From: Levilactobacillus cerevisiae
GTDB lineage: Bacteria; Bacillota; Bacilli; Lactobacillales; Lactobacillaceae
Direction: 5' to 3'
NCBI RefSeq assembly: GCF_003946245.1
Contig: NZ_RHNN01000011.1
Coordinates: 1-64,000, forward strand
DNA: 64,000 bases
The translations under genes and the position numbers were made by a program. The notes beneath the pieces were generated by a model. That model was not told the DNA's origin. It saw only the letters and a program-made list of their open reading frames with translations, and searched no databases. How positions within the stretch are numbered: the first letter of the stretch is position 1; each line of letters opens with the position of its first letter. Below are positions 21,873 through 52,796 of this stretch, one piece after another.

Positions 21873-22078
21873 GGTCTGGTCGCTGTAGGCGTGAGTGAAC
21901 CAAATTTAGGCTCAGCCGTGGGATTTTCCAAGTGGGGTGCTTGGAAAATGGCGACTTTGAAACGCGGGCTTGGCGGTTCAAAGCGAGGTCAAAGACCGCT
22001 CTTTGGCTTTGGCCGTCCTGCCCACAGCGTTCCAGCCTAAATTTGGCGAACGGTAAGCCGGCAGGCAAGCACCAGACC
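21873..22078 (-). ncRNA. Structured RNA element R1 (unknown family, minus strand)
   Basis: Sits 5 nt after the yhgE stop, same strand. Outer arms GGTCTGGT/ACCAGACC (21873-21880, 22071-22078) enclose CCAAATTTAGGCT/AGCCTAAATTTGG (21900-21912, 22034-22046). Inside are a perfect 10-bp hairpin (ATTTTCCAAG/CTTGGAAAAT), CTTTGAA/TTCAAAG and CAAAG/CTTTG. Read on the minus strand it contains CGCTGTGGGC, AGCCAAAGAGCGGTCTT, CTTTGAACCGCC and TCCCACGG. All of these recur in similar order in element R4 and partly in R3, while the stems differ. Confidence 0.6.
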
Positions 22079-22083
22079 AGTAC

Positions 22084-24852
22084 CTAAACCTCTGGGATGT
22101 CCATGGCGTTGATGCGGCCGTGCCGGCGAGCGTAGAACAGCATCGCCATCGCCGAGAATGCCAAAGCAATCCCGAAGAGCACGCCCATTTCAGGCAAGGC
22201 CGAGTTGCCAATCATCAAGGTCTCGCGGAAGCCATCGACGGCGTAACTCATGGGTAACCAGGGATGAATGGCCTTGAAGAACCCATTTGTCAGTTGCAGC
22301 GGGTAGGTCCCCGCGGAGCCGCCAAGTTGGAGCACCAGCAGGACCATTCCGAAGAAGGCCCCCGGCTTGCCCAGCACCAGGTTCAGCCAGTAGACAATGC
22401 TCATGAAGGCGCCCCCAGTTAAGAGGAGCATCATGAACGTCGCCCACGGATGAATCGGTGCGAGCCCGTCGATGCTGGCGAGCAGGCCGGTCATAAATGT
22501 GGCTTCGCCGAGGACAAAGGCACTCATGATGGACGCCTTGCCCAGCCACCAGCTCCAACCAGTCCGGGGGTATTTCCGCGGCGTGTACATGTCAAACATC
22601 AGGTTGAAGACCAGTGCCCCCACGAAGAGGGAGACGGACATCATGTACGGCGCCATCCCGGTCCCATTGTCCGGCGCATCATCGTGGTCGGTGTGGGTCG
22701 TGGTTGTCGGTTGGGCAAATTGGCGGTAGGTCAGCTGTGACGGGTGACCTACCGCCGCTTTCTTGCTGGCGGCGTTCAATGAAGTGGCCAGCTTGGCGTT
22801 GCCGGTCTGAACCGTTGCGGCGCCCGTCGTTGCTTGCCTGGCACCGGTTGCCAGTTGCTTTGCGCCACTCGTGACTTGCGTCGTGCCGTTCGTGGCCGTC
22901 TGCATGGCGGCGGTCAGCTGCGGCCCACTGGTGGCCAGGGTGGTGAGGCCGCTGGTCAGGGTCGTGGCCCCGTCAGCCAGCTTGGTAATGCCACTCTTGA
23001 GCTGGGGCGTCTTGCCGTTAAGCGTGGTCAAACCACTAGCCAGCGTGGTTGCGCCGCTGTTGAGGCTGGCATTTTTCGCGGTCAACTGTTGGGTCCCACT
23101 TGCTAGTTGCGATGTGCCACTGACGAGTTGTTGCGTCCCGGTGGTCAGTTGGGTGCCCTTAGTGCTGAGCTGCTGCGTGCCGGCGGCCAATTGCGTGGCG
23201 CCGGTCGTGAGTTGACTGACGCCGCTGGTGAGGCTGGGCGTCTTGGACGACAGCGTCTGCAGGCCCGTGTTCAGGGTGCCCAGCGCGGTATTGGCCGTTT
23301 GCAGGCTACTGGTCAAGGTCTGCGCGTTCGTGGTCAACGTGTCGACACCACTGGCCAGCTGATCTTGGGCGCTGGCCGCCGCGGTCAGGCCACTTTGGAG
23401 ATCGGTCAAGGCGCTGGCACTGCTGTCGAGATCACTCAGGTCACTGCTGAGTTGCTTGGCGGCGCTCTGAACCGTGGTGAGGGCGCTACTGTCATCGGTG
23501 TCACTGACGGCTTTGAGCATGGCGGCCTTTTGGGTGGCCGTCAAATTTTGGGTGTCGGCCGCCGCGGCCACCTTGGTCTTGAGGGCCGCACTGTCGTCAG
23601 CGCTCGCCAGTGCTGTGAGCGCCGTTTGTAAAGCCGCGGCGTCACTCTTAACGGCACTGGTACTCTGCGCGCTGGTGGCCAGCTTGGCCGCGGCAGTTTT
23701 CAAAGCGGTCTGTTGCGTTTTAGACGAACTGAGGCCGGATTGAAGTTGCTTGAGGCCACTGGTCAAGGCTGCGCTCCCGGTGGCGAGTTTGGTGTAGTTG
23801 GTGGTCAGTTCCTGGCTGCCACTCGCCAGTTTGGTAACGCTGCTACCGAGTTGTTGGGTGCTGGCACCGAGCGTGCTGAGATTACTGCTGAGCTTTTGCG
23901 CACCGGTATTGGCGCTGGCCACACCGCTCACGTATTGCTGGGTGCCGGACTGGACGGTCCGACTCCCCGTGGCGACTTTGCCGGCGGCCGTATTGAGTTT
24001 GCTGGTGCCGGCGGTGTAGGCGGAAACGCCGCTGCGGAGTTGTTGGCTCCCGGTTGCGAGCTGCTGGATGCCACTGATGAGTTGATTGGATTGACTGAGT
24101 AGCTGATCAAGGCCGGTGGTGAGCTGTTGACTGCCGGCCTGGGCTTGCTTGACGCCGGTGACGTACTGGCTGAGCTTGCTGGTAATCGTGCGTTCGCCGT
24201 TGGTCAGCTTGACCGAACTGCTAGCCAGCGTGTTCAGGCCGGTCGCAATTTTTTTGTCGGCGGCGGTTAATTTTTGGCTCCCAGTGGCGAGCTTCTGACT
24301 GCCCTTGCCGGCGGTGCCGAGGCCGCTCCCCAGCTGTTTGATGCTGGTAAACATGGTCTTGGCGTAGGTCTGGGTCACTTGCGCACCAACGGATTGGGCG
24401 GCGGACTTCGCGGCCGTGGCCGTCATCTTGGACGCCGTAAAGTTATGGCCGGCGCTGGTCTGGTAGTGGAGCACCATTTTCTGCGGGTGGGTGGCCATCA
24501 GGGTCGTCGCGTCGTGGGAAAAATTGTGCGGAATTGTGATGACCATGTAGTATTTGCCGTTGGTCAAGCCTTGTTCAGCCTGGGCTTTGGTCGTGACCGG
24601 TATAAATTTCATCGCCGTGGATTTTTTTAAATTGGTGGTGAGACTCTTGCCGGCGGTCAGGCGTTTACCCTGGTAGGACACGGGTTGATCCTGATTGACG
24701 ACGGCCACGGGGAGGTCGGCGAGCCTGCCGTAGGGGTCCCACATGGACTTGAGAAACGTGACGGCGTAGATTGATGGAATAAACATGATGACCACCAAGA
24801 CTGCCAAAAGTAATTTATGTTTGATTAAATATCGCCATTCTGCGCGAATCAT
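22084..24852 (-). CDS. YhgE/Pip-family membrane protein with very long coiled-coil repeat region
   Basis: 922 aa. One transmembrane segment near residue 20 and the YhgE N-domain signature (FLKSMWDPYGRLADLPVAVVNQD) are followed by an extracellular region of about 500 residues built from heptad-like repeats (QLASGTQQLTTG, KLATGSQKL and variants). The last 200 residues hold about five membrane segments (ABC-2 permease-like). Such proteins include lactococcal Pip, a phage adsorption receptor; some are linked to type VII secretion. ATG 24852 with GGGGGGA upstream is chosen over the long upstream extension. Divergent from a TetR gene that probably represses it. A shorter paralogue lies at 34896. 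Confidence 0.8.
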   Translation of the reverse strand: MIRAEWRYLIKHKLLLAVLVVIMFIPSIYAVTFLKSMWDPYGRLADLPVAVVNQDQPVSYQGKRLTAGKSLTTNLKKSTAMKFIPVTTKAQAEQGLTNGKYYMVITIPHNFSHDATTLMATHPQKMVLHYQTSAGHNFTASKMTATAAKSAAQSVGAQVTQTYAKTMFTSIKQLGSGLGTAGKGSQKLATGSQKLTAADKKIATGLNTLASSSVKLTNGERTITSKLSQYVTGVKQAQAGSQQLTTGLDQLLSQSNQLISGIQQLATGSQQLRSGVSAYTAGTSKLNTAAGKVATGSRTVQSGTQQYVSGVASANTGAQKLSSNLSTLGASTQQLGSSVTKLASGSQELTTNYTKLATGSAALTSGLKQLQSGLSSSKTQQTALKTAAAKLATSAQSTSAVKSDAAALQTALTALASADDSAALKTKVAAAADTQNLTATQKAAMLKAVSDTDDSSALTTVQSAAKQLSSDLSDLDSSASALTDLQSGLTAAASAQDQLASGVDTLTTNAQTLTSSLQTANTALGTLNTGLQTLSSKTPSLTSGVSQLTTGATQLAAGTQQLSTKGTQLTTGTQQLVSGTSQLASGTQQLTAKNASLNSGATTLASGLTTLNGKTPQLKSGITKLADGATTLTSGLTTLATSGPQLTAAMQTATNGTTQVTSGAKQLATGARQATTGAATVQTGNAKLATSLNAASKKAAVGHPSQLTYRQFAQPTTTTHTDHDDAPDNGTGMAPYMMSVSLFVGALVFNLMFDMYTPRKYPRTGWSWWLGKASIMSAFVLGEATFMTGLLASIDGLAPIHPWATFMMLLLTGGAFMSIVYWLNLVLGKPGAFFGMVLLVLQLGGSAGTYPLQLTNGFFKAIHPWLPMSYAVDGFRETLMIGNSALPEMGVLFGIALAFSAMAMLFYARRHGRINAMDIPEV

Positions 24853-24898
24853 CGGCGAATCCCCCCTGTTCTGTGGTATCCTGTGAGTAAAATATGCC

Positions 24899-24975
24899 TC
24901 ACATGTGGCTAAATAATACGCAGAAGTGTTAATCACGTCCACCACACAATGAGTTACTATGTGGATTAAGCCACA
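24899..24975. promoter_or_regulatory. Probable TetR operators in the yhgE/tetR divergent region
   Basis: TGTGG-ATTAAG-CCACA (24960-24975) is an inverted repeat. A related ATGTGGCTAA occurs at 24903-24912. Both lie between the divergent starts at 24852 and 25012. Confidence 0.5.
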
Positions 24976-25011
24976 CTTTCGCCACATCTGGGGTCTAACG
25001 GGAGGGATTCG

Positions 25012-25596
25012 ATGACGGATAGACGAGTCGTCCGAACGAATCAGGCGCTGCGAGCGGCCTTTAGAAAACTGGCCCAGCAGTATCGGTTTCGCGAAATCAC
25101 CGTGGCACAGTTAACCGCGGAGGCCAATATCAATCGGAAGACATTTTACTTACATTTTGACTCGATTGATGATTTGGCGGATAGTTTCACCGCGGAGATT
25201 GCGGATCAATTATTAGAATTGTTATTGCGGGAGCCGGCCAACCACGCGCCGCTGAATCATCCGGGCGTCTGGTTTGACCGGTTGAGTGCCTTCTTCGAGG
25301 AGGCGCCAACGTTCTATACGTTTATCCTGACGTCAGACGACTACAGCTTTCTCTCACGTCGGGTGAAATACCGCGTGGCAGCGGGGTTAGCGGCGGATTT
25401 TCAAAAGGACTATCAGCTGAGCGCCCTGGACGCCGAGATTGGCGTGAACTTCCTGATCGACAGCACGTTGACGCTGTTTCGGCTCTACATTACCAAGCAG
25501 CTGGGCGACCTGTCGTCAGCAGAATTTCGCCAGCGCATGGTGACGCTGAATTTGGCGGGGATGCGCGGGTTTTTGAAGTTGGCTGGAGGGAAGTAA
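25012..25596 (+). CDS. TetR-family regulator divergent from yhgE
   Basis: 194 aa. The N-terminal helix-turn-helix is clear (FREITVAQLTAEANINRKTFYLHFDSIDDLADSF), and the C-terminal half is helical and ligand-binding. ATG 25012 has GGGAGGG ahead. The gene pair TetR-YhgE is repeated at 34124-36188, so each YhgE seems to have its own repressor. Confidence 0.85.
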   Translation: MTDRRVVRTNQALRAAFRKLAQQYRFREITVAQLTAEANINRKTFYLHFDSIDDLADSFTAEIADQLLELLLREPANHAPLNHPGVWFDRLSAFFEEAPTFYTFILTSDDYSFLSRRVKYRVAAGLAADFQKDYQLSALDAEIGVNFLIDSTLTLFRLYITKQLGDLSSAEFRQRMVTLNLAGMRGFLKLAGGK

Positions 25597-25897
25597 GAGT
25601 AGGACAACAGCCAGCTGCCTGTTGTCGCACGTTTCGGCAGTAGAAATGTGGGGACACCAAAAGAGCCTGAGAAATGATTTCCGCCCAGACTTATTTTTAA
25701 AACTGGCTAAATGATTTTACGCGCTTAATGGAAAAATGCTTAAACTTTCAGTGAATTAAATGAAATAATGTGATTCTGATAAATATCATTAACGTTAGGC
25801 GGGTGAACGCGTCGGCCAGACGAGCAGCCCAAAGGCACCGTCGCTTTAAGCCCTCTTCAGCCGTACGCGCTGTTTAGCACCAAACGCCCAAAAATCT
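25597..25897. other. Non-coding stretch with a degenerate terminator-like repeat
   Basis: No ORF is credible. Positions about 25621-25710 (TTGTCGCACGTTTC, AAAAGAGCCTG, CCCAGACTT) resemble 70-145 and 51104-51172, suggesting a short dispersed terminator-type repeat. The middle (25690-25800) is AT-rich. Confidence 0.35.
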
Positions 25898-25940
25898 AAA
25901 AATCATCAACCACCTTATCACAGGGAAGTTGATGATTTTT
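25898..25940. terminator. Terminator after yaaA
   Basis: AAAAATCATCAAC (25898-25910) pairs exactly with GTTGATGATTTTT (25928-25940). Confidence 0.85.
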
Positions 25941-25944
25941 GCGT

Positions 25945-26691
25945 CTACTTTTGATAAATAAAAACCAACTGCGTCGCCGTCGATCGGTCCGCTGCAAATG
26001 CCCAGTCGGGGTGGTCAAAGGCGGTCGCGTCGGCTGCCGTCAGTGCTTGGTGTTCGGCCAAAAAGCGGACCATTTCGCCACGGGCCATTTTGGCGAGAGT
26101 GGCCTTGGTGACCAGTTTGCCGTTGACCAGGCTGGCGAACACGATGGTGATTAGTTGGTCCGGGTTCTGCAGGTAGGGCGTGATGGCCTTTGCGTACTCC
26201 TGTGAGGCCAGATTAATGATCGGTTCCGCGCCGTCAACCAAAGCCTGGTAGAGGCGGTCGCCCCAGAAATCATACAGATTGCGAGCACCGGCGACCGGCA
26301 ACTTCGCCTGCATTTCCAAGCGGTAGGGGACGATGCCGTCAAATGGCCGCAGGATCCCGTAGAAGCCCGAGAGAATCCGCAGATTGTTACGGACGTAATC
26401 CAGGGCCGGGGCGGTAAACAGGTCCGGCGCCATGTACTGGTACTGAATCCCAGAGTAGGCCAGGAGTGCGGGCGTCAACTGGCGCTGCAGGTCGAGTTGC
26501 TGGAGCCAATTGTAATTGGGTCGCGCAAGCTTGTCGCTGCAGTGCCACAACGTCTTCGCCGCGGCATAGTCCAGTTGTCGGAGCCGGGCCAGGATGGCTT
26601 GCGTCTGGTCAAGGTATTGGGGTAGGCCATCAACGCCAAAGGTATCGGTATCGACGACCATTTTCTTGGCCGGTGCGATGATGATTTTCAT
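25945..26691 (-). CDS. yaaA: Peroxide stress protein YaaA
   Basis: 248 aa, the normal length. The opening MKIIIAPAKKM is the YaaA signature, with YSGIQYQYMAP and LSGFYGILRPFDGIVPYRLEM as further conserved blocks. YaaA lowers free intracellular iron and so DNA damage under peroxide stress. ATG 26691 with GAAGG upstream. It is transcribed alone, with the candidate small RNA and its terminator about 110 bp upstream. Confidence 0.92.
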   Translation of the reverse strand: MKIIIAPAKKMVVDTDTFGVDGLPQYLDQTQAILARLRQLDYAAAKTLWHCSDKLARPNYNWLQQLDLQRQLTPALLAYSGIQYQYMAPDLFTAPALDYVRNNLRILSGFYGILRPFDGIVPYRLEMQAKLPVAGARNLYDFWGDRLYQALVDGAEPIINLASQEYAKAITPYLQNPDQLITIVFASLVNGKLVTKATLAKMARGEMVRFLAEHQALTAADATAFDHPDWAFAADRSTATQLVFIYQK

Positions 26692-26804
26692 GGGGAACCT
26701 TCTTTCGAGTTAAGGGGTGCTTGGCGCCAAAGTGCTAGTTCCATTGTACCGACAATCGCCGGCATTACGACAGTTATTTTACCCAATTTCCCTAAAAATC
26801 GGTA

Positions 26805-26908
26805 CAAAAAAAGCAGCCTCGCGTTCTACTCGAGACTGCATGTGGTGAGGTGCGGCGACCTTCTGAATGCTTGCGCACCGATCGCGTACCCCCACCGTGG
26901 TTTGGCAC
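26805..26908 (-). ncRNA. Candidate small RNA with its own promoter and terminator
   Basis: On the minus strand TTGACT (plus 26939-26944), a 17-bp spacer and GATACT (26916-26921) form a near-consensus promoter that predicts a start at about 26908. The transcript contains the hairpins CGTGGT-GCCAA-ACCACG and GGTGCG/CGCACC. It ends with a terminator (GCAG-CTCG stem, plus 26812-26839) and seven Ts. Length about 104 nt. No credible peptide or known family is recognised. Confidence 0.6.
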
Positions 26909-26966
26909 CACGAGTAGTATCGCACGTGGCTGGTGGTGAGTCAAGGAAAAATTGCTGTGGCAGATT

Positions 26967-27002
26967 CACGTGGTCGTTGTCCAGGCGGTAACTGACCACG
27001 TG
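26967..27002. terminator. Hairpin after deoC
   Basis: CACGTGGTC (26967-26975) and GACCACGTG (26994-27002) are exact complements. The T tract is weak, so this is a transcript-end stabiliser or weak terminator. Confidence 0.45.
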
Positions 27003-27013
27003 AGCCCGCTAAA

Positions 27014-27029
27014 TGTTTCATGTGGAACA
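27014..27029. promoter_or_regulatory. parS: parS-like site 4
   Basis: TGTTTCATGTGGAACA, two changes from the consensus, lies just downstream of deoC. Confidence 0.65.
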
Positions 27030-27039
27030 TTTGGTCAGC

Positions 27040-27693
27040 TTAGGCCTTGCCAATGACCTTCAGACCTGAACTCGTACCCAAGCGGGAAGCCCCGGCATCA
27101 ATCATGGCTTCGGCCTCATCCTTGGAGTGCACACCGCCAGACGCCTTGACTTTGATGCGGTCGCCAACGGCCTTCTTCATCAGGACCACGTCTTTAATGC
27201 TAGCGCCACGGGTCGAGAAGCCAGTGGAGGTCTTAACGAATTCGGCGCCAGCGTCGGCCACAAGCTTGGACGCCTGCATGATTTCTTCGTCGCTCAACAG
27301 GGCCGTTTCGATGATGACCTTGGCCAACTTGTGGTTGTCGTGGGCCGCATTGATGACGGCGGTCAGGTCGGCGGTCACGGTTGCCAAATGGCCACTCTTG
27401 AATTCGCCAATGTTCATGACCACGTCAATTTCATCCACGCCGTCTTTCACGGCCTGCAAGACTTCGGCGACCTTGATGGCCGTGGTGTTCGCGCCCAGAG
27501 GAAAGCCAATCACGGTGTCGGTATTGACATCGGTATCTGCCAATTGTTGGTGCGCGTAGGCCACCCAGTACGGGTTGATCATCACGGAGCGGAAGTGGTT
27601 TTCCTTAGCCTCGGCAACGATACGGTCAATGTCGGCTTGCGTGGCCTCCGGAGCGAGTAGGGTATGGTCGATGGTACGGTTTAAATCAGTCAT
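27040..27693 (-). CDS. deoC: Deoxyribose-phosphate aldolase
   Basis: 217 aa. Class I aldolase splitting deoxyribose-5-phosphate into glyceraldehyde-3-phosphate and acetaldehyde. The Schiff-base lysine motif FVKTSTGFSTRGA is intact, and KVIIETALL and VKASGGV complete the barrel. The second ATG (27693) has GAGGA at 7 nt and is the better start. It is divergent from its SorC/DeoR-type regulator. The other deo genes (deoB, deoD, pdp) are not here. Confidence 0.95.
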   Translation of the reverse strand: MTDLNRTIDHTLLAPEATQADIDRIVAEAKENHFRSVMINPYWVAYAHQQLADTDVNTDTVIGFPLGANTTAIKVAEVLQAVKDGVDEIDVVMNIGEFKSGHLATVTADLTAVINAAHDNHKLAKVIIETALLSDEEIMQASKLVADAGAEFVKTSTGFSTRGASIKDVVLMKKAVGDRIKVKASGGVHSKDEAEAMIDAGASRLGTSSGLKVIGKA

Positions 27694-27754
27694 GTTCATG
27701 TCCTCTTTTCTGTTAGGTTCAAATCTACCCTCTTAATCTACCACGCTTTCTTAC

Positions 27755-27787
27755 AAATGTAAAATAGAAAATATATCAAATGTAAAG
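27755..27787. promoter_or_regulatory. Direct repeat operator in the deoC/deoR divergent region
   Basis: CAAATGTAAA occurs at 27755-27764 and again at 27778-27787, 23 bp apart (about two helical turns). This fits binding of an oligomeric regulator between the two promoters. Confidence 0.55.
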
Positions 27788-27833
27788 TGTGGTAAAATAG
27801 GGCTATCAGTAAATTTGAGATGGAGGAAATCGC

Positions 27834-28778
27834 ATGGCACTGTCTAAAAAACAAATTGAACGGATTTTGGCGATCAGTCGTTACTACTATCAAGACGACC
27901 TCAGCCAGCAGGAAATCGCCCAGAAGATGAACCTGTCCCGGCCGACGGTGTCCAAGTCGCTCCAACTGGCGCGGGAAAATAATATCGTCACCATCACCAT
28001 TCAGGACCCCTTTGAAAATACGGCGGTCATTCGCCAGCAGCTACAGGAGAAGTATCACCTCAAGGACGTGGTGATTGCAGAGCAGGCGAACTACGATGAG
28101 CAGGGCATTTTGGAACAGTTGGGGGCCGTCACAGCAAATTACCTGGATCAAATTGTGACGGACGGCGTGACCATCGGCATCAACTGGGGCCGGACCATGG
28201 CGGCCGTGGCCAACCACCTGCATCCCAGTCACAGCCAAAACGTGCGGCTGGTGCAGCTCAAGGGGAGCGTGACCAACTCGGGCGAGGACAATTTCTCAGC
28301 AGCGATTACCCAGAAATTTAACCAGGCCTTTCACACGCAGGCGAGCCTCTTACCCTTGCCGATTATTTTCGGGGATGCCAAGGTCAAGCAGCTGGCCATG
28401 CGCGACCAGTTCATTCACCAGGTCGTTTCCCAGGGCAATGCGGCCGATATCGCGCTGTACACGGTCGGAACGACGCGACCAACCGCCATGCTCTTTCAGT
28501 CGGGCTACCTCGACGATGCGCAAATTCACCAGCTCCAGACGACGGCGGTGGGCGACGTGCTCTCCCACTACATCACGGCCGCCGGGGAGTTAGCCGTGCC
28601 GGAATTGGACCAACGAACGGTCGCCATCCCTCTGCCCCAGCTGGCGAAGAAACGCTATGCCATTTTGATTGCCGGGGGTCAGGCCAAACTCCAGCCGATT
28701 CACGCGGCATTGGTCGGCGGGCACGCCAACGTGTTGATCGTGGACCAGGCCGTCGCCAAGGCGTTGGTTGCGCTGTAG
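27834..28778 (+). CDS. deoR: SorC-family sugar-phosphate-responsive regulator (DeoR of deoxyribonucleosides)
   Basis: 314 aa. An N-terminal helix-turn-helix (DDLSQQEIAQKMNLSRPTVSKSLQLAREN) is followed by a sugar-phosphate-binding domain with GINWGRTMAAVANHL and AGELAVPEL, as in Bacillus DeoR. The effector is probably deoxyribose-5-phosphate. ATG 27834 has GGAGG upstream. Position back to back with deoC supports the assignment. Confidence 0.85.
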   Translation: MALSKKQIERILAISRYYYQDDLSQQEIAQKMNLSRPTVSKSLQLARENNIVTITIQDPFENTAVIRQQLQEKYHLKDVVIAEQANYDEQGILEQLGAVTANYLDQIVTDGVTIGINWGRTMAAVANHLHPSHSQNVRLVQLKGSVTNSGEDNFSAAITQKFNQAFHTQASLLPLPIIFGDAKVKQLAMRDQFIHQVVSQGNAADIALYTVGTTRPTAMLFQSGYLDDAQIHQLQTTAVGDVLSHYITAAGELAVPELDQRTVAIPLPQLAKKRYAILIAGGQAKLQPIHAALVGGHANVLIVDQAVAKALVAL

Positions 28779-28829
28779 CGGCGGGCATTTGACGACCAGA
28801 AACTCTGACAATTGACGGGAGGTAGCCAC

Positions 28830-29564: not shown

Positions 29565-29667
29565 TTGCCAGAAATGACTGACAAATTTCGTGAATCAGCT
29601 TGGAGAAAACTCTTTAACAGATCAAGTCAATTCGGTATACTAAAGAAAAAATAGTGGGGTGAGTTGC

Positions 29668-30240: not shown

Positions 30241-30314
30241 GAGCGGCCGCGGACTTGGCCATTGCTAAATTTATTTCCGAAAAAAACGTCCGGTCAGGAG
30301 ACCAGGCGAATTGA

Positions 30315-30352
30315 AAAAGCAGACGTGGCGTGAGATGGCCAGGTCTGCTTTT
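30315..30352. terminator. Terminator between the pRiA4b-like gene and the arabinofuranosidase
   Basis: AAAAGCAGAC (30315-30324) pairs with GTCTGCTTTT (30343-30352); usable from both sides. Confidence 0.8.
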
Positions 30353-30525: not shown

Positions 30526-31964
<1,439 letters not shown>

Positions 31965-32030: not shown

Positions 32031-32292
32031 TATAATTTTTGTCATAGCTAAAGATGAAAAACTTCGGAAGGGTGGTTAACGATGATTGTCGCTGTTAAAT
32101 TAGGTGGAGGTGCCACCTGCGGCTGCCAGAGATTCCGGTTACTATGGGGACCGCCTGCGGCCTGAGGGACGGTCCTCCGGCTCGGTTTGAAGCCTGGAGG
32201 AATCGCCAGTCTCCAAACACGTCCCACGCTGTAAGCTGATTCTCAGCTAACACCGTTGTCACAGCTACCTCCGTCTCTGGCCTCCTCCGGTT
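32031..32292 (+). ncRNA. Structured RNA element R2 (unknown family, plus strand) with its own promoter
   Basis: A -10 TATAAT at 32031-32036 points into the element. The core (32115-32292) has closing arms GCCAGAGA/TCTCTGGC (32125-32132, 32274-32281) and internal hairpins GGACCG/CGGTCC, CCTCC-GGCT/AGCC-GGAGG and AGCTGA-TTC-TCAGCT. It shares CACCTGCGGCT, CTATGGGG, TTGAAGCC, GTCTCCAA, CGTCCCACG, AACACCGT and TCCTCCGGTT, in this order, with R3 at 52221. In R3 the closing stem has changed on both arms (CCAGGGA/TCCCTGG). A short frame after 32082 has no recognisable content. Confidence 0.62.
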
Positions 32293-32358
32293 GAAACGGT
32301 GTTTTACCAGTTATGTTAGTACAAAACACTATTGCGCTAGCTTTTGACGATTGGTTGT

Positions 32359-45798: not shown

Positions 45799-45800
45799 AG

Positions 45801-45845
45801 AGAGACCCGTTAACGATGCGTTTGCGTCGTTGACGGGTCTCTTTG
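45801..45845. terminator. Terminator of the Wadjet-like operon
   Basis: AGAGACCCGT-T-AACG pairs with CGTT-G-ACGGGTCTCT, followed by TTT. Confidence 0.85.
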
Positions 45846-45852
45846 GCGGACA

Positions 45853-45966
45853 CTATTTTTTCTCAGCAGAACGGGCTGGCGCTTTGACCGTTTGACAACT
45901 TCCCAGCGTGACCAAGGCCACGGTCACAAACAAAGCGGTAAATGACGTGATGAGTTTAACCAACAT
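45853..45966 (-). CDS. 37-aa membrane miniprotein
   Basis: ATG 45966 has GGAGGAGG 8-15 nt upstream, a strong ribosome binding site. Sequence: MLVKLITSFTALFVTVALVT, then LGSCQTVKAPARSAEKK. One membrane helix and a basic tail. The gene is tail-to-tail with jetD and shares its terminator. Unknown function. Confidence 0.5.
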   Translation of the reverse strand: MLVKLITSFTALFVTVALVTLGSCQTVKAPARSAEKK

Positions 45967-46173
45967 AAGCGGTTCCTCCTCCGAATGGACTAGAACACTT
46001 GCTGTGAGTGTACCACGTAATTTCGGTGAGCAGGAAAGTTTCGTTTTACCCGCCAATCTAGGCCTATCCGAAACTAAATTGCCTAGAATTGGTTCACAAA
46101 CTGAACGCAAGCAAAGTTAAGTTAGAACCGGTAGAATGGAAAGTAAGAAATTTATCGAGGAGGAACTACAACC

Positions 46174-46602
46174 ATGCCAACCCTTAAGCGCGTTGATTCA
46201 CTGACCTTAGACCTCTACCTGAAAGGCATCTTCACCCAGCAATTTGACCAGCATCACTTCGATTACGACGGTCAGGTGGGCGAGGTCCTGGCCATCGGCG
46301 CGTATGACGACGAACGCCTGATTGGCGGCATCCTGATGCGACGGCGCTACGACCATTTGGATATTGCCAAGCTGGCAATCGACAGGGCCTATCGGGGCAA
46401 ACGGTTGGGAACGCAACTGATCCGGGCCGCCGAAAAACTAGCGCGGGACCGGCACGTCATCAACATCACGCTCTCAACTCGCAGCTATCAGGCGGTCGGC
46501 TTCTACGAAAAATGTGGGTACCAAATCTACGGGACGGTGGTCGATCTCCCGTTTGCGGGCGTCACCACCACCTACTTCGTGAAGCGCCTGACGGCAAAAT
46601 AA
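46174..46602 (+). CDS. GNAT-family N-acetyltransferase
   Basis: 142 aa. The acetyl-CoA motif A is LAIDRAYRGKRLGTQLIRAAE, followed by LSTRSYQAVGFYEKCGYQ. Length and ending (GVTTTYFVKRL) fit small GNATs of the ElaA/YjgM kind. Acceptor unknown. ATG 46174 has GAGGAGGA ahead. Confidence 0.8.
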   Translation: MPTLKRVDSLTLDLYLKGIFTQQFDQHHFDYDGQVGEVLAIGAYDDERLIGGILMRRRYDHLDIAKLAIDRAYRGKRLGTQLIRAAEKLARDRHVINITLSTRSYQAVGFYEKCGYQIYGTVVDLPFAGVTTTYFVKRLTAK

Positions 46603-46621
46603 AAAGCCCTCCACCGAGAGC

Positions 46622-47524
46622 TTAATCACTGACACCATCGTAGCCAATGAACGTGTAATAGGTTTGCCCGCCAATGCGGTACAGACTATCAAACGTCCCC
46701 GCTGTCCCCGTTTCCGGATTGCCGGTCGTGTGTTGGGGCTGGTGCAGATTTTTTAAAGTTAGTTTGTATTGGGCGTTGCCAGTGTGGCTAACGCGGGTGG
46801 TCTTAATTCCCGCAACGGCATGGCTAAAGTACAGCGTCCGGTTAGGGTCGTGGAAGGCCGTTTTCGTAATTTTGGCCATGCCGATGGGTTTCTGATAAAA
46901 GCCCAGACCGGCGTTGGCCTTAGCGTCATATTGTAGAACTTCTAAATAGCCATCCGGTGTGACGCGGATACTCTTACTATCGGGTTCAATTGGGCTCAGA
47001 GCCGCATCGGCGCCACCCACGTAGAGGTCGCCGTGACTGTAGCCGGGCATGTAGTCCGGAGCCTTGACCCGCTTGAACGCAGAGAGCTTGGTGGTATCCG
47101 TGATGGTTGCCTGCGGATCATACGCGCTGGCGCCGGGGTCAATCGTATAACCCGGACGGGCACTGTTAGCCAGTACCGGGTAACTTAACCGCGCCAAGAA
47201 TAATTGGAGGCTGGGGACCAAGTAACTGCCCGCTTTAGTCGTAGTTAGGTTACCGGCCACCGTGATGCCAGCGGGGAGTGTGAGTTTTTGACTGATTTCG
47301 TGACCCGTTTTATAAGTTGGGTAATAAGCGACTTTGACCGTCACGGGACGGGTGGTCTGGTAGTAGGCACTCAGGTTTAAAAAGTCCGTGCTGGCCGTAT
47401 AATCGCCAACCTTGACCAGGGCGCTGGGCTTCTCCGTTTGGGCGTGAGCAGCCAGTAAGCCACTACAGATGACCAGCCCAAGAGCCAACAACCCGAGGGT
47501 GTTTTTAACAAATTTTTGATAAAT
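46622..47524 (-). CDS. Secreted protein of unknown function with an apparent ATT start
   Basis: 300 aa from ATT 47524. A TTG at 47491 would start inside the hydrophobic core and give a signal peptide with no charged n-region. Eleven codons upstream, ATT follows AAAGGAG at 9 nt and yields a regular signal peptide (YQKFVKNTLGLLALGLVICS, then AAHA). The -10 TATACT (plus 47560-47565) predicts a leader of only about 30 nt, leaving no other start. The mature part is beta-rich (YTIDPGASAYDPQATIT; GDLYVGGADAALSPIEPDSK) and unanchored. Family not recognised. Confidence 0.62.
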   Translation of the reverse strand: MYQKFVKNTLGLLALGLVICSGLLAAHAQTEKPSALVKVGDYTASTDFLNLSAYYQTTRPVTVKVAYYPTYKTGHEISQKLTLPAGITVAGNLTTTKAGSYLVPSLQLFLARLSYPVLANSARPGYTIDPGASAYDPQATITDTTKLSAFKRVKAPDYMPGYSHGDLYVGGADAALSPIEPDSKSIRVTPDGYLEVLQYDAKANAGLGFYQKPIGMAKITKTAFHDPNRTLYFSHAVAGIKTTRVSHTGNAQYKLTLKNLHQPQHTTGNPETGTAGTFDSLYRIGGQTYYTFIGYDGVSD

Positions 47525-47764
47525 GGGAACCGGCTCCTTTCGAAAAATGTCTAAGGTTAAGTATACCTGAAACCGAGCTGAATTGCACCGAACTTATGTT
47601 CTTTTGGCAAACCCAGTGGGGATTCATTTAGAAAACGGGTCGCGTTAGTTCTCAGCAGTCATTACCGCGAGCCAGGGTGATGGCTTTTTTTGGCAGGCAA
47701 AACGCAGCCTTAACGTCAAGCACGCCCAACCGCTAAGCACCTGAAATAAGACATTTCCCCGCAG

Positions 47765-47779
47765 TTAACCCGGGTTATA
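47765..47779. repeat. Left copy of a 15-bp repeat with palindromic core
   Basis: TTAACCCGGGTTATA, containing the 12-bp palindrome TAACCCGGGTTA. The same 15 bases occur at 48440-48454, flanking the broken XRE gene. The rest of 47525-47882 shows no gene except the promoter of the secreted protein. Confidence 0.7.
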
Positions 47780-47882
47780 TTTGCCGGCAACGCCGCTAAA
47801 ACCCGCGTTGACAACCAAATAGTCCGGGAAATTTTCCGTGGTGTTTGCTATGATTAAGGTGTTCATTCGGGGAGGAATGGTC

Positions 47883-48443
47883 ATGGAAATTAGGGAACAA
47901 CTTAAGCAACAGCGGGCACAACGGCACTGGTCGCAATAGGACCTGGCCGAGCGCCTACAGATCTCGCGGCAGTCCGTTTCAAAGTGGGAGCGGGGGACCG
48001 CGTTACCCAGTTTCGCCAACGTGGTCGCCATCAGTGACCTATTTGGCTTGTCAATTGATGAGCTGATTCGTGGGGACACCGAGCTCATGGACCAACTCAC
48101 GGTGGCCGACGAGGAAGACGTTGGTCCGGTGGGGCGGGTCATTTACGGCGGCCTGTTTTGGGGTGTGATTGGCTTCTTGGCCACTTGGGCTTTGGGCCTG
48201 GATTACCAGGATACGGCGGCCTTGTTGCAACTACCAATTGTTTTGGTCTTTATTGCCTTACTGCTGACAATCTACGCCAACCAGTAACACCACCGGGCGC
48301 CGTTATCGCGGGCCGTGATCTGGTTGAGCATCGGCCTCATTGCGCTCATGGTCTTGCCACTGATTAGTGCGAATGTGGCAGCCATCGTTAAAGTTGTGCC
48401 GGGTGCCGCTCGGGCAGGCTGGCATGCCGGTGCTGGAAATTAA
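47883..48443 (+). pseudogene. XRE-family membrane-bound regulator with two in-frame stops
   Basis: From ATG 47883 (GGGGAGGAATGG ahead) the frame reads MEIREQLKQQRAQRHWSQ, TAG (47937-47939), then DLAERLQISRQSVSKWERGT. This is a classical Cro/XRE helix-turn-helix in which the TAG stands where Glu is usual (SQEDLA). After LSIDELIRGD come two membrane helices, a TAA at 48285-48287, and then, still in frame, another helix (AVIWLSIGLIALMVLPLISA) to a final TAA at 48441. Without the stops it would be 186 aa, a membrane-tethered XRE regulator. Each lesion needs a single base change. Confidence 0.78.
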
Positions 48444-48454
48444 CCCGGGTTATA
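48440..48454. repeat. Right copy of the 15-bp repeat
   Basis: TTAACCCGGGTTATA again. It overlaps the last stop of the XRE pseudogene and lies about 80 bp upstream of the DeoR/GlpR-type regulator gene, so it could be an operator rather than a duplication scar. Confidence 0.6.
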
Positions 48455-48535
48455 AATTTCCCGTTCTGGTTATTTTGGCGTACACTTGATGGAAAGTCGA
48501 AAATAATTGCTTTCTATCGAAAGGAGCAGGTACTC

Positions 48536-49285
48536 ATGGCCCACGAACGGCGGGAACAAATCATTCAAATCGTCAATCAGCAACGGAAGGTTGCGGTCAC
48601 CGAACTAGCTCGGGCAACGGGGGTGTCACTGGTTACCATCCGCAAGGACCTGACTGAGTTGGAGGCGGAGGGCCTACTCATCCGGCAACATGGGGTTGCC
48701 ATGATCAACAATCCCAACGACTTGAACTACCGGCTGGCTCAACACCACGCCCAGAAAACCCGCATCGCCCGGGCCGCCGCGGAGTTGGTCGCAGACAAGT
48801 CGACTATCATGATCGAGTCTGGCTCCGCGTGTGCCCTGTTAGCTGAAACGCTGGGCCAACAAGAAAAGCACGTGACCATCGTCACCAACTCGACCTACAT
48901 TGCCAATTTGGCCGCCAGCTATCCGAACCTGACGCTCTTCGTTCTCGGCGGTCAGTACCAGCCCGAGTCACAGGTGACCGTGGGGGCGCTGACCAAGCAA
49001 CTGCTGCAGTCCTTTCACGTGGAACAGCTCTTTGTCGGGACGGACGGCTTTGATCCCGCGGCAGGCTTCACCGGCGCCGACATCCAACGGACGGAAGTGG
49101 TTCAGGAGATGGCTCACCGTGCCGAGCAACTGATTGTCTTGACGGATGCCAGTAAGTTTAAACGGCCCAGTCTGATTCACCAGTTTTCACTGCCCGATGT
49201 CTCTACAGTTATCACGGATGATAGCGTGACGGCTGGGGTGATGATGGTGTTGCGTCATTTCAAAATAAATTTATTAATGGTCTAA
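48536..49285 (+). CDS. DeoR/GlpR-family transcriptional regulator
   Basis: 249 aa. The N-terminal helix-turn-helix is RKVAVTELARATGVSLVTIRKDLTELEAEGLLIRQHGVA. The C-terminal DeoR sensor domain (MIESGSACALLAETL; TDASKFKRPS) binds a phosphosugar. It lies just upstream of gldA, so glycerol or dihydroxyacetone phosphate are likely signals. ATG 48536 with GAAAGGAG. Confidence 0.87.
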   Translation: MAHERREQIIQIVNQQRKVAVTELARATGVSLVTIRKDLTELEAEGLLIRQHGVAMINNPNDLNYRLAQHHAQKTRIARAAAELVADKSTIMIESGSACALLAETLGQQEKHVTIVTNSTYIANLAASYPNLTLFVLGGQYQPESQVTVGALTKQLLQSFHVEQLFVGTDGFDPAAGFTGADIQRTEVVQEMAHRAEQLIVLTDASKFKRPSLIHQFSLPDVSTVITDDSVTAGVMMVLRHFKINLLMV

Positions 49286-49292
49286 GTCACTG

Positions 49293-49328
49293 ATACCAAG
49301 TCCGCCAACGCCGACTTGGTATTTTTTT
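49293..49328 (+). terminator. Terminator after the GlpR-type gene
   Basis: ATACCAAGTC pairs with GACTTGGTAT, then TTTTTT. Confidence 0.88.
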
Positions 49329-49340
49329 CACAATCAGGTC

Positions 49341-49385
49341 TTGAAAACGTTTGCAAAAGAAACTATACTTAGTTTCGTTAGAAAC
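49341..49385 (+). promoter_or_regulatory. gldA promoter with cre site and operator dyads
   Basis: TTGAAA (49341-49346), 17-bp spacer, TATACT (49364-49369). A cre site TGAAAACGTTTGCA (49342-49355) covers the -35. GAAACT-N6-AGTTTC (49359-49376) covers the -10, and GTTTC-GTTA-GAAAC (49372-49385) follows, probably for the upstream DeoR-type regulator. Confidence 0.78.
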
Positions 49386-49425
49386 GTTACATAATCTTTT
49401 GCCTAATTTGAAAGGGGTTCGTGTC

Positions 49426-50526
49426 ATGGAAAGTATTTTTGGGAGTCCCGCAACTTACGTTCAAGGAATTGGTGTCTTGTTTGATAGTGCCAAGTACATT
49501 CAGCGGTTAGGGTCGAAAGCCGTTCTGCTGGCGGATAGCGTGGTTTACGGTATCGTCGGGAACGATTACCTGGCTTACCTGAAGCAAAACGACATTGACG
49601 TGAAACAGGTGACCTTTAACGGGGAAGCCTCCGACAACGAAATCAAGCGAGTTGACGCCATCGGCAAGGAATTTGATACCGACATGATCATCGCCCTCGG
49701 TGGTGGGAAAACGCTCGACAGTGCCAAGGCGATTGCTGACGACCTGCACGTTCACGTGGCCGTTTTGCCAACGCTGGCCTCGACCGACGCGCCATGTTCA
49801 CGGCTCTCCGTCCTCTACACGGATGACGGCGCCTTTGAAAAATACCGTTTCTATGACAAGAACCCTGACCTGGTACTGATCGATACCAAAGTGGTTGCCG
49901 GCGCGCCAGTTCGTTTGCTGGCTTCCGGGATCGCTGACGCCTTAGCGACCAACGTTGAAGCCAAAGCGGTGGCTAAGGGTGACAAGCAGACCATGTTGAA
50001 TGGTCACCAGACCTTGGTCGGGAACGCCATCGGTTCCAAGTGTGAGGAAACCCTGTTCAAATACGGGATGGCGGCCATTGCTTCCGTGAAGGATCACGCC
50101 GTTACCAAGGCGCTCGACCACATTGTTGAGGCCAACACGTTGATGAGTGGTCTCGGCTTTGAAAGTGGTGGCCTGGCCGCTGCTCACGCCATTCACGACG
50201 GCTTGACCGCGCTGGATGGCCCCATTCACAGTCTGACGCACGGGGAAAAGGTGGCCTTCGGGACGCTGACCCAGCTGTTCCTGGAAGGTGCCGACCAAGA
50301 ACGTTTTGAAAAATTCCTGAAGTTTGAGCTCGCCATTGGCATGCCAACCACCTTTAAAGATTTGAAGATTGAAGGGATCAGTGACGATGATCTCTTGAAG
50401 GTTGGGAAACAAGCCACGGCACCAGCTGACACCATGGGCCGGATGCCGTTTGAGGTGACGCCTTACGATGTGGCCCAAGCCATGAAGGGTGTCGACGCCT
50501 ACAGTCGCCATTTCCAAGAAAAATAA
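49426..50526 (+). CDS. gldA: Glycerol dehydrogenase
   Basis: 366 aa. NAD-dependent, zinc-containing enzyme oxidising glycerol to dihydroxyacetone. NAD motif ALGGGKTLDSAKAIAD. Zinc ligands are visible as Asp in ASGIADALAT, His in AAAHAIHDGL and His in HSLTHGEKVAFG. The frame extends upstream into the promoter, but ATG 49426 follows GAAAGGGG at proper distance. Catabolite repression is expected from the cre site. No dihydroxyacetone kinase is adjacent. Confidence 0.93.
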   Translation: MESIFGSPATYVQGIGVLFDSAKYIQRLGSKAVLLADSVVYGIVGNDYLAYLKQNDIDVKQVTFNGEASDNEIKRVDAIGKEFDTDMIIALGGGKTLDSAKAIADDLHVHVAVLPTLASTDAPCSRLSVLYTDDGAFEKYRFYDKNPDLVLIDTKVVAGAPVRLLASGIADALATNVEAKAVAKGDKQTMLNGHQTLVGNAIGSKCEETLFKYGMAAIASVKDHAVTKALDHIVEANTLMSGLGFESGGLAAAHAIHDGLTALDGPIHSLTHGEKVAFGTLTQLFLEGADQERFEKFLKFELAIGMPTTFKDLKIEGISDDDLLKVGKQATAPADTMGRMPFEVTPYDVAQAMKGVDAYSRHFQEK

Positions 50527-50539
50527 ACAGTGATTTGTG

Positions 50540-50569
50540 AAGGGTTCGATTAAAAGTCGAATCCTTTTT
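50540..50569 (+). terminator. gldA terminator
   Basis: AAGGGTTCGA pairs with TCGAATCCTT, followed by TTT. Confidence 0.8.
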
Positions 50570-50691
50570 ACTTGCCAACTATCGCGATAGTTAATAGCGG
50601 AAATTTTCAGCCGCACAGGGTATACTGTGGGCAGGAATCAGGTAATGTTAGCCACAACTGGTGAACAGACTATTTTTGGAGGACGAGCGCG

Positions 50692-51099
50692 ATGCAAAAA
50701 TGGGGACAAATCATGATCGTTGCCCTAACTACGGTGACGGTCGGCGGGGCAGCGGCAACAACGGCCCACGCGGCGACTTGGCACAAAGGCACGCCCAAGG
50801 CTTTACGGGGCAACTGGCAACGCAGCTACCGGGATCAAGGCACCAAGATTGTCATGCATTTCAAGGTTCAGGCGCAGACGATTCACCTGTCGCGGGTGAA
50901 ATCAGCGGCGACGACCTGGACGAACCTGAGTTACCAAAAAGTTGGGAAGCACACCTACAAGTTGAAGGGTATTTACCAGAACGGCGAGTTGGTCGACAAG
51001 GACGCCCGCCTGCAAATCGTTCAGAAAAATCACAAAATTGAATTCAAAAACGCCTGGTCAAGCAAGTATGATTACCTAGGCTGGTATCACCAATCGTAG
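50692..51099 (+). CDS. Small secreted protein, paralogue of the one at 32508
   Basis: 135 aa. A signal peptide (MQKWGQIMIVALTTVTVGGAAATTAHA) is followed by TWHKGTPKALRGNWQRSY and alternating beta-strands ending LGWYHQS. The PKALRGNW block parallels PKSIRSHTW at 32508. ATG 50692 has TTGGAGGA ahead. Monocistronic. Function unknown. Confidence 0.65.
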   Translation: MQKWGQIMIVALTTVTVGGAAATTAHAATWHKGTPKALRGNWQRSYRDQGTKIVMHFKVQAQTIHLSRVKSAATTWTNLSYQKVGKHTYKLKGIYQNGELVDKDARLQIVQKNHKIEFKNAWSSKYDYLGWYHQS

Positions 51100-51134
51100 G
51101 TCGTCCATTTCAGAAATAGAGGTTGGGGGATCCG

Positions 51135-51172
51135 AAAAGAGCCTGGGGGAGTGTCATCCCAGACTCTTTTTC
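51135..51172 (+). terminator. Terminator, member of a dispersed family
   Basis: AAAAGAG-C-CTGGG pairs with CCCAG-A-CTCTTTTT. Related text occurs at 97-145 and 25650-25710. Confidence 0.75.
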
Positions 51173-51284
51173 ACAAGCTGCGTGCGCGGCGAGAAAAATT
51201 AAAAAGACAAACTTGTTGCTTTTAAAGTCACAACCAGTTATGATAATCTGCAACTTAGAAAATAAGAGAAGGAGATAATCAATT

Positions 51285-52154
51285 ATGAAATACGCAATTT
51301 CTGCTGCGACCGGGCGCTTCGGTCAGCTTGTCATTCAGGACCTCCGTAAAATTGTGGATATCAGCGATATCGTTGCCATTGTCCGCGATGTCGAGAAGGC
51401 TCAACGTGTCTTGCCTGAGGACATCACCATTCGCCAAGCCGACTACACCGACGAAGCCGCCCTGCAACACGCCTTGCGTGGGATTGACCGGTTACTCTTC
51501 ATCTCGTCGGTTCCCGGTGGGGAGGTCCCGCGCCAGCAGCAACACGCTAACGTGGTCCAAGCCGCGCAAAAGGCGGGCGTGGGCTTCGTTGCCTACACCA
51601 GTTTTGCCCACGCCGATACCGCTCAGTCGCCGCTGTCCAAGGACCACGTCGCCACGGAACAATTATTACGCGACAGTGGGCTCAAGGTCAGCTTCCTGCG
51701 CAACGCGTGGTATTTGGAAAATGAATTAAGCTATCTGCAGGCTGCCGCACAGGGCCAAGACGCCGTTTACGCGGCGGGCCGGGGTAAAATTAGCTTCGCC
51801 CTCGAACGTGAATACGCCGAGGCCGCTGCCCGGGTCATGACACTGGTTGCACCTAAGGCCGTGTACGAATTTGGCGGCGAACCCCGGACCTACGCGGATC
51901 TAGCCGAAACATTGAGCGCGCTGACGGGAAAGTCCTTCACCTTTAAGAGCGTGGATGACGCGACCTACCGTGCCGCCATGCAGGCAGCCGGCTTGGGGCC
52001 AGAGCTGATTGGCGTGCTAACGGCCATGCAGGATATGATGCGGGCCGGCGAGCTGGACGTCACGTCGACTGACTTGCCCGACGTGCTGGGCCGGCCGTTG
52101 TCGACGCTCCCCGATGCGCTGCATGAGGTTCTCCAGGCCCACGCTGGCGCTTAA
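51285..52154 (+). CDS. NmrA-like NAD(P)-binding oxidoreductase (quinone oxidoreductase QorB-like)
   Basis: 289 aa. Atypical SDR: the Rossmann motif is AISAATGRFGQL, with LLFISSVPGG and YTSFAHAD next, and a C-terminal substrate lobe. Probably an NAD(P)H-dependent quinone reductase. Promoter TTGCTT (51216-51221), 17 bp, TATGAT (51239-51244). Start ATG 51285 with GAAGGAGA ahead. Structured RNA element R3 follows about 65 nt after the stop on the same strand. Confidence 0.8.
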   Translation: MKYAISAATGRFGQLVIQDLRKIVDISDIVAIVRDVEKAQRVLPEDITIRQADYTDEAALQHALRGIDRLLFISSVPGGEVPRQQQHANVVQAAQKAGVGFVAYTSFAHADTAQSPLSKDHVATEQLLRDSGLKVSFLRNAWYLENELSYLQAAAQGQDAVYAAGRGKISFALEREYAEAAARVMTLVAPKAVYEFGGEPRTYADLAETLSALTGKSFTFKSVDDATYRAAMQAAGLGPELIGVLTAMQDMMRAGELDVTSTDLPDVLGRPLSTLPDALHEVLQAHAGA

Positions 52155-52220
52155 CGCGCTGGTGAAAATGAGATCGGATCGGCGCTGGCCGCCTTCTTGC
52201 CAAATTGGCTGGGGCTGGTC

Positions 52221-52402
52221 ACCTGCGGCTTCCAGGGAGCTCCGCCTGCTATGGGGCCGGTTCCAGCCAAAGAACGGGCTTCCACCTCGACTTGAAGCCA
52301 CGAAGTACGCGTGTCTCCAAGGTCGTCCCACGGAGTAGGCCGGGCAAATACCCCGACCAACACCGTCGACACAGCTGGCTCCGTCCCTGGCTTCCTCCGG
52401 TT
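52221..52402 (+). ncRNA. Structured RNA element R3 (unknown family, plus strand)
   Basis: Closing arms CCAGGGA/TCCCTGG (52232-52238, 52384-52390). Hairpins GCC-G-GTTC/GAAC-G-GGC and GGCTTC/GAAGCC (around 52278-52299). Shares ordered core motifs with R2 (CACCTGCGGCT, CTATGGGG, TTGAAGCC, GTCTCCAA, CGTCCCACG, CACAGCT, TCCTCCGGTT). Its centre (AGCCAAAGAACGGGCTT, ACCTCG) closely matches the minus strand of R1. Stem sequences differ with pairing kept. Confidence 0.62.
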
Positions 52403-52458
52403 AACGTTGCTGGGCGAATTTGACCGAGCGGAGTCACTGACACATTGCATTCAAAACG

Positions 52459-52498
52459 GCGCAGTCACCATCTACAGCAGATGGTTGGCTGCGCTTTT
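52459..52498 (+). terminator. Terminator after R3
   Basis: GCGCAG-T-CACCATCT pairs with AGATGGT-T-GGCTGCGC, followed by TTTT; a plausible end for an nmrA-R3 transcript. Confidence 0.8.
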
Positions 52499-52620
52499 AC
52501 TTGTGTGGCGTCAATTGAGGCCATTTAGTGACTCATGATTATTGGCCAAGAGCTAGTGACTACAACTAGACTGCCACGTGAAGGTGAGTCATCCAATCTA
52601 AACGGGCTAACGCCATGTAA

Positions 52621-52796
52621 GCCGCAGGGCTGGCGCAAATGAGCCAAGCCGTGGGAATTGCCTTAGCGGCGCACTTGGCCGGTTAGGCAATTGGTATCTT
52701 TGAGCCGCAGGCGGCTCAAAGTAAGTCTGGAGACCGCCTTTTGGCTCCAGACGGCCGCCCACAGCGGTCCGGTCTCATTTGCGCCAGCCCGGAGGC
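52621..52796 (-). ncRNA. Structured RNA element R4 (unknown family, minus strand)
   Basis: A perfect 17-bp terminal stem (52627-52643 with 52774-52790) is extended by GCC/GGC. Minus-strand hairpins are GTCTGGA/TCCAGAC around GCCAAAAGGCGG, CTTTGAGCCGC/GCGGCTCAAAG, and AATTGCCT/AGGCAATT. Core motifs CGCTGTGGGC, AGCCAAA, GCGGTCT, CTTTGA.CCGCC and ATTCCCACGGCT match R1 in order, while every helix differs in sequence. It lies antisense-oriented just upstream of the lac promoter. Confidence 0.65.

Follow-up and report, generated by a model that had tools for sequence, protein, structure and literature searches.

A 64,000-nucleotide stretch of the Levilactobacillus cerevisiae genome (contig NZ_RHNN01000011.1, positions 1 to 64,000; this whole stretch is called the window below) carries four structured elements, R1 to R4, which are probably mobile repeats acting at the DNA level. 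They would be four resident copies of an old, non-autonomous family of interspersed foldback repeats of the Lactobacillaceae, partly mobilised by an insertion sequence (IS) of the IS4 family: an IS4-family transposase may move, in trans, a form of the family packaged as a miniature inverted-repeat transposable element (MITE), and R1 and R2 of the window may be decayed or solo relatives of such MITE units. Base pairing within the elements would be kept as DNA, by the need for a hairpin or cruciform in spreading and by gene conversion between copies, and not by the function of a transcript. The observations on which the repeat reading is based are the copy number, the intergenic placement, the paired double changes in the stems, the facing pairs, presence and absence between species, the exchange of cores and the MITE packaging in two species.

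The R1-R4 family in the window and in the Lactobacillaceae

The original prediction, made from the sequence by itself, had described four similar elements; covariance models place all of them within 17 bases of where they had been predicted, and the helix changes named at that time are real. Each module is a foldback of ~180 bp, in which an outer stem encloses several hairpins. R1 (21887-22061, minus strand; 204.4 bits with the R1 covariance model, E 1.1e-7 with the R2 model) is a solo copy located directly 3' of a 967-aa open reading frame (ORF; 22084-24987, minus strand), and R2 (32113-32292, plus strand; 210.6 bits with the R2 covariance model) is a solo copy between two leftward ORFs of 462 aa and 139 aa. 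R3 (52219-52402, plus strand; 154.9 bits with the R2 model) and R4 (52620-52798, minus strand; 140.6 bits with the R1 model, E 2.8e-14 with the R2 model) are the first and second halves of a facing pair (52219-52798) with a 217-nt spacer between the modules. R4 spans 52603-52820 (minus strand) if its degenerate outer ends are counted; as read from the window sequence, the left end is CGGGCTAAC and the right end AACATTACCCG. Since the model built from the R2/R3 types also finds R4 and R1, the four elements form one family, in which R1/R4 and R2/R3 are branches. A conserved hairpin loop and bulge (AGCC..GCGGTCT) is found in the R1/R4 types and partly in R2/R3. No fifth module was found in the window by the R1 or the R2 model at E<=0.1.

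Folding of R1 and R4 with some flanking sequence gave z-scores of -5.66 and -7.26, respectively, against shuffled sequence, and R2 and R3, taken singly, did not stand out from shuffled sequence (z -1.51 and 0.25). The R2 model also recognises the reverse complement of R2 (window 32114-32293, minus strand; E 2.1e-6), which makes the module itself near-palindromic. No Rfam family matched the whole window at the gathering score, or the R3 and R4 region (52000-53000) at E<=1. The part of the original prediction that is supported is a family of homologous, strongly covarying structures without an Rfam match. Between R1 and a 469-aa ORF, the window also contains a strong hairpin with flanking A/T runs (21700-21756), which has the shape of a bidirectional terminator.

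The initial count of four copies was a great underestimate. Searches of the L. cerevisiae genome with R4, R2 and R1 as DNA queries, in which the best 40 of 129, 176 and 215 candidates were scored, gave at least 41, 40 and 41 matches, respectively; R2 is 87-92% identical to at least 39 other places, and R4 has at least 40 further places at 79-88% identity. When the best 150 of 1808 first-look candidates were scored with the R1 model, all 150 matched (weakest E 1.1e-21), which brings the genome to at least 150 matches. In L. wangkuiensis, 22 copies are present on one 191-kb contig, i.e. about one module per 9 kb, a density taken from this contig only, as the L. cerevisiae segments were fetched around matches. 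The nearest protein match, 93% identical, was to L. wangkuiensis, L. mulengensis and L. lanxiensis.

A covariance search of the genome and of other Lactobacillaceae, suggested with the original prediction, found the family widely. The R1 model detected it in 22 of 24 Levilactobacillus genomes (L. cerevisiae included) and in none of 16 genomes of other families of the order. With the R2 model (E<=1e-4), it was present in 51 of 251 Lactobacillaceae genomes, representing 10 of 40 genera, in a search with stricter filters in which the best 10 candidates per genome were scored. Among 40 named loci of other or poorer relatives, two matched (Secundilactobacillus odoratitofui, 3; Lactiplantibacillus modestisalitolerans, 1). 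R1 and R2 as DNA queries gave no match in a plasmid collection. In viral contigs, the R2-helix pattern gave 0 stretches and the R1/R4-helix pattern 23, one of which matches the R1 model at E<=0.01; this contig (IMGVR_UViG_2886212900_000003) carries an R1/R4-type module at 850-1029 (plus strand, 142 bits) facing a second at 1241-1344 (minus strand). No description of this repeat in lactobacilli was found among the top-ranked results in the open-access literature, and two narrower searches there, on miniature inverted elements in Levilactobacillus and on intergenic repeats in Lactobacillus brevis, held no papers.

The copies are intergenic and tend to face one another. Only 2 of 203 elements, a mix from L. 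cerevisiae segments and contigs of relatives, lie inside a predicted ORF (genes were defined by a simple ORF rule, and ORFs consisting of >30% element were skipped). Of 47 neighbours situated at most 130 nt apart in the L. cerevisiae segments and the contigs of five relatives, 35 are facing, 12 are in tandem and 0 are divergent. Close module pairs at 8 loci in other genera are all facing, with spacers of 62-368 nt, and comprise at most 7 independent pairs, as two of the loci (L327 and L328) appear to represent a single place in genomes that are related.

The occupation of orthologous places varies between species. At the R3/R4 place, upstream of a 643-aa ORF, a module was present in 0 of 27 other orthologous Levilactobacillus loci (profile search, E<=1e-4; 1500 nt available for 26 of them and 177 nt for the remaining one, L136). 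Of 26 loci with a match of at least 57% identity, the L. cerevisiae locus included, 6 carry some element downstream (3') of the 967-aa ORF, and 3 of the 26 offer only ~140-300 nt of downstream sequence. At this last place, the facing composite of L. yonginensis is oriented opposite to its counterparts in two sister genomes, as an inversion in situ would leave it (loci L082, L083 and L085 in G050, G049 and G010).

The MITE form, its probable IS4-family partner and the R3/R4 frame

L. angrenensis (genome G040) and L. suantsaiihabitans (G047) contain a MITE of ~640 bp that has the facing module pair as its body, CTGAAGGTTGAAAG as its inverted repeats and target duplications of 7-9 bp. Within one mismatch, the terminal repeat occurs at 101 sites in the former genome and 86 in the latter, against 1 and 0 for a reversed-pattern control. 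Target duplications (at most one mismatch over 7, 8 or 9 bp) flank 18 of 20 elements, against 8 of 380 crossed-end controls; these 20 were drawn from 22 stretches, with L310 and L313 omitted. Thirteen of the 20 elements are 615-644 bp long and the others measure 277-468 and 729 bp. Each of the 13 elements of 600-660 bp contains an R2-type module and an R1-type module that face each other, and the mean pairwise identity among these elements is 86% (79-97%). At four places, the genomes of L. suantsaiihabitans and L. angrenensis were compared: two gave clean filled and empty sites, with CTGAAGGTTGAAAG or a degenerate form of it and a duplicated target, the third holds a partly deleted copy in L. 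angrenensis and is empty in L. wangkuiensis, and at the fourth the filled/empty comparison did not resolve. The terminal repeat has few sites in L. cerevisiae (11), where an alignment of 16 full composites extends over ~530 bp and is ragged at its ends.

The MITE form is in all likelihood linked to the IS4 family. A sequence, CTAAAGGTTGAAAG, lies 62-65 nt past the stop codon of a truncated transposase in L. cerevisiae (contig C56) and L. angrenensis, and the L. cerevisiae transposase matches PF01609 and the IS4-family model NF049925 (NCBIfam; 276 bits against a cut-off of 250). Plasmid copies from L. paracasei and L. plantarum (71.5% and 67.5% identical) carry CTAAAGGTTGAAAG at one end each, so that it is found in one end only of four truncated or partial copies (L. 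cerevisiae, L. angrenensis and the two plasmids). Both ends read CTGAAACTTGAAAG in the intact relatives from L. yonginensis and an L. brevis plasmid; this repeat differs from the MITE repeat at 2 positions. A separate observation concerns L. hammesii (G023), in which eight contigs end ~40 bases beyond CTAAAGGTTGAAAG (C8, C30, C39, C58 and C63, at bases 41-56, and the ends of C20, C38 and C62), as if a collapsed multicopy element had broken the assembly.

The R3/R4 type occupies a different frame. The consensus of 31 aligned R4-type copies ends in CGGGTTAAAC and GTTTAACCCG, situated ~220 bp apart. Between L. wangkuiensis, L. mulengensis and L. lanxiensis, most flank-mapped copies reside at the same places. 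At four shared places, species with like outer stems and flanks differ in the core, which belongs to the R4 type in one of them and to the R3 type in another, and at two further places the L. mulengensis core resembles a different branch; such like frames with differing cores suggest that cores are exchanged within retained frames. At two places, additional copies seem to have arisen by local tandem duplication. In one comparison between species (G012, contig C6, 153460-153634, and G043, contig C32, 35577-35750), the hairpin-apex arms read CTTAG and CTAAG, i.e. they are reverse complements, as inversion of a hairpin would give.

Transcript or DNA fold

The alternative that survives best, itself unlikely, is that the modules represent a class of structured non-coding RNA (a small RNA, an element of 3' untranslated regions or a protein-binding RNA), spread by transposition and kept for its transcript. 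Covariation is what speaks for it. The original prediction had seen covariation in four copies, and it is strong in larger alignments too, including rows from other genera. In the alignment of 122 distinct Levilactobacillus rows to the R2 model (with R1/R4-type copies drawn in), 95.0% of cells pair, against 74.9% when shuffled, the covariation score is 0.501 against 0.166, and double changes occur in 40 of 45 pairs. The 31 distinct rows of other genera, taken from outside the model building (one row being the opposite strand of another), gave 94.1% against 70.0%, 0.616 against 0.172 and 37 of 45 pairs, and the 82 distinct rows of the R1 model gave 95.8% against 85.8%, 0.291 against 0.119 and 17 of 33 pairs. 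In all three alignments, 0 of 500 shuffles reach the observed covariation score or percentage paired; one of five measures, further pair types, was equalled by 86 of 500 shuffles in the R1-model alignment. In slid controls, 34-51% of cells pair. These values come from alignments fitted to the model, which favours it, with relatedness uncorrected, so that cells are not independent events, and with multiple copies per genome retained, whereas a review of pitfalls recommends keeping one copy per genome and states that pseudogene copies blur covariation (PMC11234323). The conserved loop and bulge and the presence in 10 genera favour the non-coding RNA as well.

The copies within L. cerevisiae also change in pairs. 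Against the consensus of each type (32 R1, 33 R2 and 10 R4 copies), pair-keeping double changes number 61, 22 and 22, with 0.7, 1.2 and 0.1 expected from the single rates, and broken double changes 4, 9 and 0; stems change by 4-6% per side and loops by 11-14%. A selected transcript should tolerate G-U over A-C on one strand. In resident orthologs at 14 places, Watson-Crick pairs changed to G-U 21 times, to A-C 18 times and to other mismatches 31 times, a count in which the structure was taken from one species alone and which is regarded as unbiased. Among the L. cerevisiae copies, 35 G-U cells stand against 103 A-C cells, an excess counted in cells, in which a few inherited columns may dominate. 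Elements between tandem genes are evenly oriented (45 sense, 47 antisense), the copies are very many and diverging, and the fact that the reverse complement of R2 scores with its own model likewise argues against a transcript. The proposal that selection acts on RNA structure is therefore not supported, given the even orientation between tandem genes and little or no strand preference in stem decay; even orientation and the G-U and A-C counts point, short of proof, to a fold kept at the DNA level.

Several results weigh against the reading of R1-R4 as mobile DNA-level repeats partly moved by an IS4-family element. As regards the strand, G-U exceeds A-C (62 to 33) when the structure comes from the joint ortholog fold, and in all cells of the fitted alignments (100 to 32 and 156 to 76). 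These G-U-leaning counts are biased, because their structures admit G-U and not A-C; without the pairs dominated by G-U, the fitted alignments give 45 to 32 and 90 to 76, per pair they give 9 to 8 and 15 to 16, and the other genera give 45 to 36. A persistent G-U position in helix 2 speaks mildly for one strand. Pairing is preserved in resident orthologous copies, where 27 double changes kept a pair and 1 broke it, and a host function could account for this; 21 of the 27 kept changes fall in three places, as block exchange would give. As regards the mover, no intact IS was found in which both ends carry the exact MITE repeat, the intact L. yonginensis IS having CTGAAACTTGAAAG; of 8 genomes searched for NF049925, 4 gave a match, which exceeded the cut-off in a single genome; and of the MITE-rich genomes, L. 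angrenensis holds a NF049925 fragment and L. suantsaiihabitans none. The MITE repeat was not found near R1-R4 (the window has 4 matches with at most 3 mismatches, against 5.3 expected by chance), and the MITE-type terminal repeat was not found around the 8 facing pairs of other genera, of which 3 have a short repeat of 9-14 bp, none of them alike. For the R4 type, no exact target duplication of at least 3 bp was found in 3 or more of 17 copies, nor a clear 2-bp excess, in a test for exact duplications at motif-set ends, the true ends being uncertain.

The original prediction had named, as evidence that would count against it, homology only to a transposon end or to a MITE with target duplications. 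Two other Levilactobacillus species do have such a MITE, built of relatives of R1 and R2; the window copies, which have no recognisable terminal repeat, are not filed as MITEs of this type. Homology to a MITE only is also too simple a description, as the module is wider than the MITE of L. angrenensis and L. suantsaiihabitans. Because the window copies have no IS4-type repeat and the R4-type copies showed no target duplication, we infer their movement: for R1 and R2 from the relatives, and for R3/R4 without such support. The IS4 family as mover of the R3/R4 type is conceivable but somewhat doubtful.

Two further explanations, not all of the rivals being exclusive of the mobile-repeat reading, were weighed. 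It is highly improbable that the family consists of palindromic module pairs moved on single-stranded hairpins by a Y1 transposase (of the IS200/IS605 type or a REP-associated tyrosine transposase, RAYT), in the manner of bacterial interspersed mosaic elements (BIMEs) and of doublets of repetitive extragenic palindromic (REP) units forming hairpins (REPINs). The facing pairs (35 of the 47 close neighbours) and the intergenic scatter are similar, and Y1 transposases were found in 7 of 10 genomes searched. However, Y1 matches number 0 in the module-rich genomes G012 and G040 and 1 in G021, which is without R1-model matches, and the modules are far larger than REP units. Target duplications of 7-9 bp are not expected of Y1 transposition. 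A Y1 transposase was rejected as the partner, since its distribution across the 10 genomes searched does not fit.

Bidirectional terminators or protectors of mRNA 3' ends, selected at convergent gene ends, are a very unlikely identity for the modules: convergent gaps are slightly more occupied (35 of 162, against 61 of 373 tandem and 23 of 161 divergent), but this excess is small and in raw counts, 92 of the 203 copies are flanked by tandem genes and 42 by divergent ones, and parasitic repeats of the pneumococcus are described as showing the same convergent excess (PMC3049150). Terminator-like hairpins with T runs, which would fit this explanation, were seen between the facing modules in the spacers of two loci in other genera (L321 and L331).

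Returning to the mobile DNA-level repeat, a tentative extension is that the foldback module is an independent genetic unit that predates any single transposon. It might pass between frames by exchange of cores, be maintained as a structure of DNA, through conversion or template switching, instead of as RNA, and have been taken aboard by unrelated mobile elements across the Lactobacillaceae. If so, textbook covariation would here report selection or repair acting on a DNA fold. Covariation such as this family shows in several genera is commonly read as evidence of a functional RNA, but the orientation of the copies and the comparison between strands favour DNA here. The family lends itself to working out how mobile DNA folds can be distinguished from RNA genes, and counting G-U against A-C is a simple strand test for that purpose.

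Comparison with known systems

REP units and the BIMEs and REPINs built from them are palindromic, often alternate in orientation, lie between genes and go with RAYT transposases. The present modules resemble them in being palindromic units scattered between genes and facing each other; they differ in size, being ~180 bp long whereas REP units measure 20-40 bp (PMC3733652), and in having no consistent Y1 partner in place of RAYT.

QMITE2 of Coxiella is described as a MITE mobilised by an insertion sequence (PMC10969869). Such IS-mobilised MITEs and the present family are alike in being non-coding and intergenic, with terminal inverted repeats, direct repeats of 7-9 bp, strong secondary structure and a terminal repeat in common with an IS (PMC10969869). 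The difference is that here the body consists of facing complex modules, which also occur without this repeat, in the R4 frame and in other genera. With the IS4-family IS itself (NF049925), the likeness lies in the terminal repeat: CTAAAGGTTGAAAG agrees with the commonest form of the MITE repeat at all letters but one, and exactly with a frequent variant of it. Beyond this repeat no likeness of MITE and IS was noticed, the bodies being unaligned.

The BOX, RUP and SPRITE repeats of Streptococcus pneumoniae are similarly structured, numerous and intergenic, and BOX is modular (PMC3049150, PMC10969869). It is reported that these repeats insert into one another, and that the terminal repeats of BOX and RUP are similar to those of ISSpn2 and IS630-Spn1 (PMC3049150, PMC10969869). 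Compared by description only, the family reported here differs from them in its 180-nt multi-helix fold, its covariation over 10 genera and its facing pairs. Its mechanism is close to known kinds, namely MITEs and the pneumococcal BOX and RUP repeats; as far as we have seen, the novelty lies in how widely the family occurs, in modules that face each other, in the swapping of cores and in covariation that shows little preference for one strand.

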